Below are positions 15,958-19,946 of a stretch of 64,000 nt of DNA, in pieces. Below the pieces are notes generated by a model, which did no database searches, was not told where the DNA came from, and saw only the letters and a list, made by a program, of their open reading frames with translations. Source of the stretch: Roseobacter sp. (GTDB lineage: Bacteria > Pseudomonadota > Alphaproteobacteria > Rhodobacterales > Rhodobacteraceae); NCBI GenBank assembly GCA_002731875.1, contig PCCY01000021.1, forward strand, positions 775,678 through 839,677. Reading direction: 5' to 3'. A program made the position numbers and the translations under genes. How positions within the stretch are numbered: position 1 is the stretch's first letter; each line of letters opens with the position of its first letter.

Positions 15958-18900
15958 ATGGAGCGATCAATCTTTTCCTTTATTTGGAAGTATTCACGCC
16001 GCGACCAGCTTGTTCTACTGGCTTTCACGCTGATCACTTTTCCCTTTCTGTACGTGTCGCTCGAGTTACCCAAACGCATCATCAACGATGCCATCGGGGC
16101 CAAGAGCGACGCGATAGATATTTGGGGCATTCAGCTGAGCCAAGTGCAGTTTCTTCTGGTGTTGTGCTTTGCCTACCTTGGTGCGGTTCTTGCGCATGGT
16201 CTGTTGAAAATGCGCCTGAACACGATGAAGGGCGTATTGTCTGAACGTTTGCTAAGACGTTTCAGGTATATGCTTATCGCACGGATGATGCGGTTTCCGC
16301 GCAGCTATTTCGAAAATACCAGTCAGGGCGAATTGGTATCCATGGTCACCTCCGAGGCAGAACCGATGGGCGGGCTCATGGGGGATGCGGTCGCGCAACC
16401 GGTGTTTCAGGCCGGCCAGATGTTGATCATTCTGGTGTTTCTGTTTGTACAATCGCTTTGGTTCGGGTTGGCGGGTGTCGCGCTGATCCCGTTGCAGGCC
16501 TATCTGATCCCGATGCTGCAACGTCAGATTAACCTGCTCAACAAGGAACGGATCAAAGAAGTACGGTTGTTTTCGTCTGAAATCGGCGAAACGGCGGCGG
16601 GGATCAGCGATCTTCGTACCAATGGGGGTTGGCGGTACCGGCTGGCGACATTCACCGACCGGCTGGGCCGGTTGTTCGACATTCGGTTCCAGATTTACCA
16701 GAAAAAGTTCTTCATGAAGTTTCTCAACAACTTCATCACCCAACTTACCCCGTTTTTCTTTTATGCCGTGGGCGGTTATCTGGCCATCAAGGGGCAGATA
16801 ACAGTAGGTGCGCTGGTTGCGGCGCTTGCGGCCTATAAGGACCTGTCGAACCCCTGGAAAGAGCTGCTGACCTATTACAATCAGACGCAGGACATGGCTG
16901 TGCGATGGGAAGTCGTGGTGGAACGGTTTGCGCCCAGAGGCATGATCGCCCAGGAACTTATCGAAGGAGAACCGGTCGAAATTCCGCACTTGCGGGGCAC
17001 GATCAAGCTGGAACATATCTCGGTTCGCGGTACCGATGGCAGTGCGATTCTGGAGGATATCAACCTTGAGATACCCAAAGGGTCACGGGTGGCGATGAAG
17101 ATACCCAGCCAGACCGAACGTAACGCGATGGCCGAACTGCTTACCCGCGAGATATCTCCCAGCAGAGGTCGCGTCATGATCGCCGATCATGATTTGGCAG
17201 ATCTGCATCAGGCAGTCCTGGCGGCCCGCATCGGTTACGCACAGGGGGGGTCATACATGTTTCAGGGCAATGTCGGTGACAACCTGTTGATGCCTCTGCG
17301 CACCAGCCCCAAGACCGTGCTTTGGGACCCCCAGCGGATGGACCGCGATGCGATCGAGACATTAAGATCGGGCAACAGTCGTGACAGTACGAAAGCAGAT
17401 TGGCTGGATCCAGGCATCGCGGACTTGAACACCATCGAGGACATCAACGATTGGTGGTATGAACTGGTAAAGGCGATCGGCACAGAGGAAATCATGTTTC
17501 GCCGCATGGTGACCAATCCGATGGACCCGAACCAAAACCCAGAGCTGGCCGCGAACGTTGTTGCCTTGCGCGGCGAAGTTCATGAACGGCTTAAAGAACA
17601 GGGTCTAGACAAGGTAGTCTACCGATTTGACCCCGACCGGTTCAACCCGGCCTTGCCGCTTGGGGGTAATGTGATGTTCGCGGCCCCGGTTCGCAGTATC
17701 ACGCAAGCCGGTCTGGCGATGGAACGCGGGTTTCTGGCGATGCTGGTTGAACATGGGCTGGCCGAACAGGCCATTGCCATTTCACAGACACTTGTCGAAA
17801 CGTTGCACCATACATTTGGCAGGGATGGCACGGACCACCCCTTGTTCACGGCGCTTGGTATCGAAGAGGACCTGTACGAACAGCTTGTCGACATCGCCTC
17901 ACGCCGCCGCAACGAAGGCGACGCCGTGCTGAGCGAAGATGAATTTTCGCTACTGCTGACTATCCCGTTCGCGTTCACAGCCGAACAGATCGGTCCGGCT
18001 TTCCCCGAAAACTTCAAGCAAGAGATCCTGTCGATCCGCAAGAACAAGGGTGCCCTTATACGCGAAAAGGCCAGAGATCTTTTTACTCCGATCACGCCCG
18101 ACAAGTATCTGCCCCGCATGACCGTGCTGGAAAATGCGCTGTATGGCCGCATTTCGGCCGTCGCCGGATTGCAGGCCGATCTGGTGCTCGATGTGGTTTC
18201 GGACGTGTTCAAGTCGCACGGGCTGCATCAGGCGGTGGCGATCAATGCGCTAAACTTCCCGACGACCTTGGGCGGCACGAATATGCCCGCCTTGTTTCAG
18301 GAGCGCATGTCTTTTGCCCGAGCCGCGATAAAGCGCCCGGATGTGCTGATAATGAACCATTCGCTAGCGGGACATGATGCAGCGTCTTTGGGCAGGTTGC
18401 GTAATCAGTTGAGCGAACTGTTGCCGGAAATGACGCAAATCTATCTGGAAAGCCATTTTGACAGCCCCAGCGATTTTGACATGTCCATCGAGATCAGAGG
18501 AGGTCGCGTGGACGGTGTCGCACAGATCGATACGCCGAGCCGGGAAGACACCATTTCGGATGATCTAAGGCGCAAGCTGCGCATCATTGCGCGTAACGAG
18601 CTTTTCAATAATCTTGATCCGCGCAATCAGCGTTTGCTTGCCTTTGCCGCGCAGTGGATTTCGATCGAGAAGGGTGGTCAGATATTCGCCATGGGGCAAA
18701 GGCCGGATGCAGTTTATCTGTGCCTGTCAGGCAAGAGCGAACTCAATTGGGTAGATCCGAACGGGGCAAGCCATCACGTGTCTACTGTGGAAGCAGGCAG
18801 GTTGATCGGCGACCTTGCAGTGTTGATGAACGAACCGCGGCAATTTGACTTTATCGCAGTCGAAGACAGTAGCTTTTTGAGGATCGGGGCCGATCAGTTC

Positions 18901-19059
18901 CGGTCGGTCGTCGAAAATGACAAGGTTATTCTGCTAAGCCTGCTGCGCACGGTTTCCAGCCACCTGACCGGGGCCGCCGACTTGTTACGCACCGCGGGAA
19001 TAGACATCCCGCGCACCGGTGAGAATTTACCGGTACCACTTGGGGATAAACGCTCGTGA
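15958..19059 (+). CDS. Degenerate ABC exporter-like protein with cyclic nucleotide-binding domain
   Basis: A 1033-residue protein in three parts. Residues about 10-320 form a six-helix type I ABC exporter membrane domain. Residues about 345-840 align in outline with an ABC ATPase, but the key motifs are lost: the Walker A position (about 377-390) reads MKIPSQTERN without GKS/T, the signature position reads ALFQERMSFARA, and Walker B reads DVLIMNHS (795-802) with N and H for the usual D and E. A helical stretch of roughly 270 residues is inserted between the Q-loop region and the second half. Residues about 880-1005 form a CRP-like cNMP-binding domain. ATP hydrolysis seems unlikely. It is coupled to a CPBP protease. 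Function unknown. Confidence 0.88.
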   Translation: MERSIFSFIWKYSRRDQLVLLAFTLITFPFLYVSLELPKRIINDAIGAKSDAIDIWGIQLSQVQFLLVLCFAYLGAVLAHGLLKMRLNTMKGVLSERLLRRFRYMLIARMMRFPRSYFENTSQGELVSMVTSEAEPMGGLMGDAVAQPVFQAGQMLIILVFLFVQSLWFGLAGVALIPLQAYLIPMLQRQINLLNKERIKEVRLFSSEIGETAAGISDLRTNGGWRYRLATFTDRLGRLFDIRFQIYQKKFFMKFLNNFITQLTPFFFYAVGGYLAIKGQITVGALVAALAAYKDLSNPWKELLTYYNQTQDMAVRWEVVVERFAPRGMIAQELIEGEPVEIPHLRGTIKLEHISVRGTDGSAILEDINLEIPKGSRVAMKIPSQTERNAMAELLTREISPSRGRVMIADHDLADLHQAVLAARIGYAQGGSYMFQGNVGDNLLMPLRTSPKTVLWDPQRMDRDAIETLRSGNSRDSTKADWLDPGIADLNTIEDINDWWYELVKAIGTEEIMFRRMVTNPMDPNQNPELAANVVALRGEVHERLKEQGLDKVVYRFDPDRFNPALPLGGNVMFAAPVRSITQAGLAMERGFLAMLVEHGLAEQAIAISQTLVETLHHTFGRDGTDHPLFTALGIEEDLYEQLVDIASRRRNEGDAVLSEDEFSLLLTIPFAFTAEQIGPAFPENFKQEILSIRKNKGALIREKARDLFTPITPDKYLPRMTVLENALYGRISAVAGLQADLVLDVVSDVFKSHGLHQAVAINALNFPTTLGGTNMPALFQERMSFARAAIKRPDVLIMNHSLAGHDAASLGRLRNQLSELLPEMTQIYLESHFDSPSDFDMSIEIRGGRVDGVAQIDTPSREDTISDDLRRKLRIIARNELFNNLDPRNQRLLAFAAQWISIEKGGQIFAMGQRPDAVYLCLSGKSELNWVDPNGASHHVSTVEAGRLIGDLAVLMNEPRQFDFIAVEDSSFLRIGADQFRSVVENDKVILLSLLRTVSSHLTGAADLLRTAGIDIPRTGENLPVPLGDKRS

Positions 19060-19946
19060 ACAGATATTCAGCCCATGCGGCGTTTTATGCGCCAGCAATT
19101 CCAAGTGCTGCGGTTTGGCGTGTCGTCATTGGTTTCTTGGCGGCCTCGGCAATTTATCTGTTGCTGAATAATCTTTTATTTGGCGCGGTCTTTTCAGTTC
19201 TGGGCGCGCAAAGTGACGCGTTCTACCAAGATATCATGGCGGGGCGCACCCCGTTCGCGATGCTGTTGCTGTTGGGAAGCTTCGGGTTGATGATCACCGG
19301 TGTGGCCGTGGTGACCCGTCTCATCCACCGGCGTTCTTTCCTGGGCCTGATCGGGCCTATGGAACTGGCTTTGTCCCAGTTCGGCGCAGTTTTGGGGGTA
19401 ATGGTGTTGCTGAACGCAGCAATATACATTCTGCCCCCTTGGGACATGGGAGCAGACTATGTTCCAAACATGGAATTTTCCAAGTGGGTCCTGCTGCTGC
19501 CCTTTTCTCTCATCGGGGTGCTGATTCAGGTCACGGCTGAGGAAATGGTTTTCCGCGGCTACGTTCAGCAACAGCTTGCCGCGCGCTTCCGGTCTCCGCT
19601 TGTCTGGATGGTGTTGCCTGCTGCGCTGTTTGCCCTGGGCCATTACCTGCCTGACCAAGCGGGCGAAAATGCATTTCTCATTGCGCTATGGGCCGGGGTG
19701 TTCGGCATGCTGATGGCTGACCTCACGGCGCGGTCAGGGTCGTTGGGTCCGGCGATTGCCGTGCACTTTTCAAACAACGTTGCCGCTATCGTGTTTATCT
19801 CGATGCCGGATGACCTGTCGGGGTTGGCCTTGTACCTGACCCCGTTTGGAATGGACAATCCCGAAGAGCTGCGCGCATGGTTGCCTGTTGATTTTGCCCT
19901 CATGCTAGTAACCTGGCTAGCAGCCCGGCTGGCGATCCGCCGTTGA
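19056..19946 (+). CDS. CPBP family intramembrane metalloprotease
   Basis: A 296-residue polytopic membrane protein of the CPBP (ABI/Rce1-like) family. The catalytic motifs are intact: EEMVFRG at 162-168, a histidine in FALGHYL at 196 and HFSNN at 237-241. The GTG start overlaps the stop of the ABC-like gene (GTGA), so the two proteins are made together. The family cleaves or binds membrane substrates; here the substrate is unknown, but the coupling suggests that it acts with the degenerate ABC protein. Confidence 0.92.
   Translation: MNRYSAHAAFYAPAIPSAAVWRVVIGFLAASAIYLLLNNLLFGAVFSVLGAQSDAFYQDIMAGRTPFAMLLLLGSFGLMITGVAVVTRLIHRRSFLGLIGPMELALSQFGAVLGVMVLLNAAIYILPPWDMGADYVPNMEFSKWVLLLPFSLIGVLIQVTAEEMVFRGYVQQQLAARFRSPLVWMVLPAALFALGHYLPDQAGENAFLIALWAGVFGMLMADLTARSGSLGPAIAVHFSNNVAAIVFISMPDDLSGLALYLTPFGMDNPEELRAWLPVDFALMLVTWLAARLAIRR

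Follow-up and report, generated by a model that had tools for sequence, protein, structure and literature searches.

A probable pseudo-exporter with a cyclic-nucleotide-type sensor

We analysed a 64,000-nucleotide (nt) stretch of Roseobacter sp. DNA, hereafter the window, that carries at positions 15958..19059 (stop codon included; this and all features below lie on the plus strand) an ATG-initiated gene for a 1033-residue protein. The protein joins the membrane domain of an ATP-binding cassette (ABC) exporter to a degenerate nucleotide-binding domain (NBD) and to a C-terminal cyclic nucleotide monophosphate (cNMP)-binding domain. Because the ATPase motifs are broken in all relatives of its branch that were examined and yet the gene is under selection, the protein probably acts as a membrane switch under signal control, not as a pump. 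To the fuller reading, that of a pseudo-exporter whose membrane domain is no longer run by ATP and is controlled through the cNMP-binding domain, we give about an even chance. A first-pass annotation of the window had also proposed a pseudo-transporter with a cNMP-type sensor, and this part of it is borne out by the uniform loss of ATPase residues in the fused branch (the proteins in which exporter and cNMP domain are joined) and by strong purifying selection in close relatives. A transporter fold that has lost its motor, stays under selection and carries a fused messenger sensor offers a testable trigger.

Loss of the ATPase motifs

The motif losses described in the first-pass annotation are evident in the sequence strings themselves: Walker A reads MKIPSQTERN (17095..17124), the ABC signature ALFQERMSF (18289..18315), which does not match the LSGGQ type, and Walker B DVLIMNHS (18340..18363), all three missing their canonical residues, Walker B acids included. 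Pfam ABC_tran matches the NBD only at E 0.13, under the family cut-off. When the window protein was aligned with 79 named relatives of the fused branch (80 rows), no row had Lys at the Walker A position, which is occupied by Arg in 70, and none of the 79 relatives had the catalytic Glu. A GK[S/T] string does occur in eight rows, though within the strand preceding the loop and off the aligned position. The H-loop His is absent from its aligned position in all 80 rows, with a His one residue further on in 23, the window protein among them. Of the 79 relatives, 46 retain the Walker B Asp that the window protein has lost. A second fused-branch set of 39 rows, which counts the window protein twice and whose 38 distinct rows overlap with the 79 named relatives, contains no GK[S/T] and has D-E in one row (L024).

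In a membrane-domain tree of 69 rows (built by a quick method without bootstrap, four rows lying on very long branches) the fused Roseobacter-group proteins form one clade of 40 rows, with a support of 100 in the Shimodaira-Hasegawa-like approximate likelihood ratio test (SH-aLRT). Sub-clade support is 92 for A (the accD locus, to which the window belongs), 96 for B and 99 for C/D. A set of 39 outer rows represents other lineages of the class and includes best matches from a class-wide profile search. At Walker A, 24 of these have Lys and 10 Arg; an acidic residue replaces the P-loop Ser/Thr in 33, Asn, Ser or Thr stands at the Walker B Asp position in 28, and both changes are found in 25. The catalytic Glu is present in 21 and the H-loop His in 15. 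The single canonical member, L069, keeps GKT, D-E and H; homologues with GKS/T and DE, which the annotation had said would count against its claim, are thus represented by this remote protein and by none of those examined inside the fused branch. Judging from these alignments, loss of the ATPase residues is the rule of the window's branch, and the wider family is marked by a peculiar acid-swapped P-loop. The family forms a natural series, from a canonical ATPase (1/39) through the acidic P-loop with Asn, Ser or Thr at Walker B (25/39) to loss of Lys and Glu (79/79 fused relatives), and this makes the question of what the ABC fold can do without ATP directly testable.

Selection on the coding sequence

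Lost catalytic residues, together with a broken copy in genome G561 and possibly another in G623, could indicate a decaying pseudogene family. This alternative was rejected as scarcely credible: all 79 named copies read through without internal stops, and the ratio of nonsynonymous to synonymous substitution rates (dN/dS) lies between 0.005 and 0.091. The Nei-Gojobori method (NG86) was applied to each of five domains in 12 relative-to-relative comparisons, the window protein being in none of them; 59 of the 60 values were obtained, with dS often near or above 1. By these low ratios, every domain is under purifying selection in the close relatives.

Constraint is unevenly spread along the protein. 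Mean pairwise identity in 11 genomes is 83% for the membrane domain, 63 and 60% for the two NBD halves, 69% for the insert described below, 65% for the cNMP domain and 37% for the last 29 residues; a canonical exporter from the same genomes, used as the one control, gave 80 and 80%. By this measure the membrane domain is as constrained as the control exporter, and the rest is relaxed yet not free. The far better conservation of the membrane domain agrees with a different reading, in which this domain alone is functional, as a scaffold that binds or scrambles lipids, while the role of the NBD and cNMP domain is only to hold the dimer together. Paralogues that consist of the membrane domain without an NBD occur within the genus as well as on plasmids of roseobacters, which points the same way. 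We nevertheless consider a function of the membrane domain alone rather unlikely, since purifying selection extends to the cNMP domain and the phosphate-binding Arg961 of this domain is invariant (80/80 rows).

The membrane-only copies from same-genus genomes (L025, L026, L037 and L040) are 402-472 residues long as first-start open reading frames (ORFs). To judge from a reading of the sequences, made without profiles, their neighbours resemble copper-handling genes (multicopper-oxidase-, plastocyanin- and cytochrome-like). Close relatives of these copies are carried by Phaeobacter, Leisingera and Pseudosulfitobacter plasmids.

Membrane domain and exporter kinship

The exporter membrane domain occupies residues 1-325 (15958..16932), with a match to Pfam ABC_membrane over residues 54-291 (E 6.5e-21). 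An AlphaFold model of the whole protein, built from 63 sequences (mean predicted local distance difference test score 80.1; predicted template-modelling score 0.65), contains long helices that we read as six, with low confidence at residues 145-164 and 295-301; the profile match and these helices uphold the six-helix membrane domain of the first annotation. The best NCBIfam profile is MsbA (E 5.2e-36), though at 124 bits against a curated cut-off of 602, and the best sequence in the PDB is Sav1866 (E 1.4e-22). A Foldseek search with the whole model has ABC exporters among its best 50 hits, at TM-scores so low (0.19-0.34 by query) that it adds little.

The protein resembles the type I exporters MsbA, Sav1866 and PCAT1 in its ABC_membrane domain and overall fold. 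It differs from them in lacking Walker A, signature and catalytic Glu, in its approximately 265 extra residues with NBD repeats, and in its cNMP tail.

The cNMP-binding domain

The C-terminal domain proposed at first reading is confirmed by Pfam: PF00027 (cNMP_binding) matches residues 902-988 (18661..18921) at E 3.2e-14, with 53.1 bits against a cut-off of 27.5. Among PDB chains it is best matched by one labelled Protein Kinase A (E 7e-11). Within the phosphate-binding cassette, IGDLAVLMNEPRQFDF (18805..18852), Arg961 is kept and Asp952 stands at the position of the ribose-binding Glu. That Glu is present in 16 of 26 clade B/C rows.

A nucleotide cyclase gene flanks six of 38 clade B/C/D loci (L024, L030, L033, L180, L195 and L196) and three of 29 outer loci, as counted with a profile made from five of the very cyclases it detects; the scan groups of 27 and 30 included a locus of clade A (L123) and a fetched piece of 100 bases. 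Two of the cyclases carry CHASE2, with a FecR-domain gene close by. The flanking cyclases mildly favour a cyclic-nucleotide ligand for the family and are silent for clade A.

The insert in the NBD

Alignment of the window protein places about 265 extra residues (452-716; 17311..18105) between the Q-loop NLL and the signature. The first-pass annotation had the protein gain an insert here; the extra residues are indeed present, but what they hold is repeats of an NBD segment, with no foreign domain. Modules of the ENLLFG type recur at about residues 550-622 (17605..17823) and at about residues 703-770 (18064..18267), the latter extending into the signature. Profiles of the family were compared by hhalign in windows placed on the ENLLFG-like motifs, with E-values that refer to single comparisons. 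Copies 2 and 3 matched at a probability of 98% (E 1e-13 with outer rows, 1e-14 with all rows). Copy 1 matched copy 2 over 21 columns at 96% or over 16 columns at 86%, and copy 3 over 17 columns at 88% or over 18 columns at 32%. Since the second and third copies match and show strands and helices in the same order in the predicted model, we conclude that most of the insert stems from duplication of a segment within the NBD, probably from the Q-loop/helical-subdomain region. No PDB chain matched the insert profile at E up to 1.

Comparison with known systems

A search of the open-licence PMC literature found no paper on this protein or its family. Regulatory ABC proteins of the SUR/CFTR type use the ABC fold for a non-pumping role and still bind ATP; the window protein has lost its P-loop.

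A report on HetC (PMC10986499) describes a cNMP-family domain that is fused to an exporter and required for function; fusion of exporter and cNMP-family domain is shared with the window protein. HetC differs in its C39 peptidase, the N-terminal position of its cNMP domain, its essential ATPase catalytic residue and its ppGpp (guanosine tetraphosphate) ligand. A Pfam scan of the window protein detected neither C39 nor any other peptidase domain, unlike HetC and PCAT. Fusion of cNMP domains to transporters of the major facilitator superfamily is mentioned in another source (PMC10710835).

Similarity to the NHLM/NHLP bacteriocin export transporters takes the form of a match to NHLM_micro_ABC1 (E 3.3e-33) and, for the separate cNMP protein of the outer family, to TIGR03896, 'bacteriocin-type transport-associated protein' (E 3.5e-10), both below cut-off. 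The outer members, however, lie beside glycosyltransferase rather than peptide genes, and the window protein is without a peptidase domain.

Exporters with a degenerate site, such as TM287/288 and TmrAB, are well known and stay functional after loss of catalytic residues (PMC7756269). They retain one competent site; a homodimer of the window protein would have none. The window protein might instead supply the inactive half of a hetero-dimer, its partner, for example another paralogue, being encoded elsewhere. Each of the 34 genomes with a copy linked to the CPBP gene (described below) does have one or more additional insert-bearing copies. Those other copies that were examined are likewise dead, Sulfitobacter-group genomes G011, G012, G013 and G016 have no further full-length copy among the matches listed (at most 20 scored candidates per genome), and no competent ABC half was recognised among the genes adjoining the window gene; a hetero-dimer is therefore distinctly unlikely. 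Further insert-bearing copies also occur in genomes without a CPBP-linked copy.

Family spread and ancestral role

Of 385 genomes searched in the class, 131 matched the insert profile, which marks the family. In a sample of the phylum, 31 of 398 genomes matched, all of them from the window's class, an unspecified number of the 398 being from outside it.

A separate cNMP gene accompanies the exporter at 24 of 26 outer loci; the domain is fused in L107 and none was seen for L108. The cNMP motif GE/GD..R[TS]A occurs in 37 of 42 outer cNMP ORFs (by regular expression, some of the ORFs overlapping). A cluster of five genes was found complete at 14 of the 26 loci; six loci have two to four of its members and six none, one of these last (L099) being at a contig end. 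Two of the cluster's genes are clear glycosyltransferases and a third matches below the Pfam cut-off; the others are a histidine phosphatase and a fourth glycosyltransferase recognised from an annotated homologue only. One of the five resembles the exopolysaccharide protein EpsE (E 5.8e-50, below cut-off). The five-gene set also lies upstream of a clade B copy on S. indolifex plasmid pDSM14862_a. Clade B loci L032, L035 and L036 matched four of the five genes and L167 one, weakly; cluster genes were absent from the remaining 34 of the 38 paralogue loci. Plasmids of Sinorhizobium, Rhizobium and Azospirillum carry related gene sets, and the canonical L069 also has one beside it. No constant partner gene was seen by eye in 14 loci of clades B, C and D, nor in 13 loci that included membrane-only copies. 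In view of the glycosyltransferase neighbourhood at the outer loci, the ancestral role was most likely export of a glycan or lipid-linked glycan.

In a conserved alphaproteobacterial locus (L021-L023, L087-L110, L111-L113), an ABC protein with an acid-swapped P-loop and a small cNMP protein are encoded together with glycosyltransferases and a histidine phosphatase. The analysis also flags a glycosyltransferase-exporter-cNMP locus, with Rhizobium and Sinorhizobium plasmids among its carriers.

A possible mode of action

If the protein is a switch, a second messenger (cyclic AMP or cyclic GMP in the first place, another anionic ligand being possible) would bind the cNMP tail. The NBD with its repeated modules could serve as a scaffold that relays the ligand signal within a homodimer, and its shift would move the membrane domain, which might then bind or release the ancestral lipid-linked or glycan-type ligand. 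The output would be a gated passive path or control of an envelope enzyme. Put in evolutionary terms, we tentatively entertain that, in the lineage of the fused Roseobacter-group clade, a cNMP-coupled envelope-glycan exporter turned into an ATP-independent, second-messenger-gated membrane receptor or gate, perhaps via an unusual intermediate with an acidic residue at the P-loop Ser/Thr and Asn, Ser or Thr at the Walker B Asp; this history is possible but doubtful.

Several observations count against such a messenger-operated switch. The ribose Glu position is Asp (D952) in all 54 clade A rows, and the cassette Arg is mostly followed by Gln-Leu in this clade; because of these two features the clade A pocket may, as far as its residues tell, be unsuited to cyclic AMP. 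The profile scan detected no nucleotide cyclase in the flanks of 53 clade A loci. The HetC domain binds ppGpp, and cyclic AMP gave no stabilisation (PMC10986499). Conservation of the cNMP domain is barely above that of the NBD, and the broken copies cited above belong to the same family. None of the 53 clade A loci has genes of the glycosyltransferase cluster, so that an envelope role for clade A rests on kinship, not neighbourhood. Finally, the sequence would also allow hetero-dimerisation, the competent ABC half being supplied from another locus.

The CPBP neighbour

The stop codon of the exporter gene overlaps by 4 nt the GTG start of a gene for a 296-residue CPBP (Rce1-like) intramembrane protease (19056..19946; Pfam PF02517, E 2.5e-17), just as the first-pass annotation had described. 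Its active site is intact, again in keeping with that description: the strings EEMVFRG, GHY and HFSNN are present in the window, and EExxxRG, H, H and N are retained in all 68 CPBP homologues.

A sensor-protease module, in which the pseudo-exporter recruits or controls the protease, had been proposed on this basis. The conserved active site fits that proposal, and so does linkage: CPBP lies directly downstream of the ABC gene in 34 genomes of the family (coordinates paired by eye) and at 51 of the 54 named clade A loci, and stop and start overlap or abut at 47 of those 51, although the in-frame start nearest the ABC stop was taken, which favours overlap. The exceptions are L132 and L172, which have no CPBP, and L123, which ends at the contig. 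Among loci L001-L020, 17 have CPBP, L005 and L017 stop at contig ends, and in L011 the ABC gene runs directly into accD, as it also does in L132 and L172 (CPBP elsewhere in these three genomes was not sought). In G491 and G623 the two genes lie on different contigs, and G561 has a broken fragment only. Given the regularity of this linkage, co-expression of ABC and CPBP in clade A is likely.

The distribution of CPBP as a whole argues against a dedicated pair. In the family sample, 209 of 295 genomes have CPBP homologues (E up to 1e-12), as against 61 of 295 with any ABC-insert match. At all ten fetched loci without the ABC gene (L071-L080), CPBP still sits immediately upstream of accD (a tandem pair in one), eight genomes having been picked for high CPBP identity and four holding a paralogue elsewhere; the profile scan found no nucleotide cyclase in the flanks of these ten. 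CPBP is absent from all 38 fetched paralogue loci. On the CPBP tree, presence of the ABC gene needs at least six changes, two of them forced by starred branches. The sensor-protease module thus finds no support as a dedicated pair and is, in our estimate, improbable; CPBP is probably a co-transcribed locus-mate with its own, wider-spread function, rather than an obligate module or dedicated partner.

The locus and its relatives

Upstream of the exporter gene, in divergent orientation, is a gene that we take to be ilvD-like. The pair is followed by accD and folC, so named after annotated homologues in Ruegeria conchae. The closest named relatives of the window protein are from Sulfitobacter (S. 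litoralis, 79%) and from a metagenome-assembled genome (MAG) labelled Roseobacter sp. HyVt-317 (96% over 723 residues).

Two cNMP-fused proteins, L107 and L113 (Azospirillum ramasamyi plasmid; 1037 and 1050 residues), lie outside the fused Roseobacter clade on weakly supported branches, as either independent fusions or one older fusion. Fused-branch proteins with 52-54% identity (L166, L167, L168, L171, L183 and L186) occur in MAGs labelled Gammaproteobacteria, Granulosicoccus and Oceanospirillaceae, through gene transfer or binning error. Clade C members L180, L184 and L190 have Ile at the position of the window protein's start Met in an otherwise open frame, where a rare start codon is possible. 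Relatives on annotated plasmids are named, among others, 'ABC transporter ATP-binding protein', 'ABC transporter transmembrane domain-containing protein' or 'cyclic nucleotide-binding domain-containing protein'.

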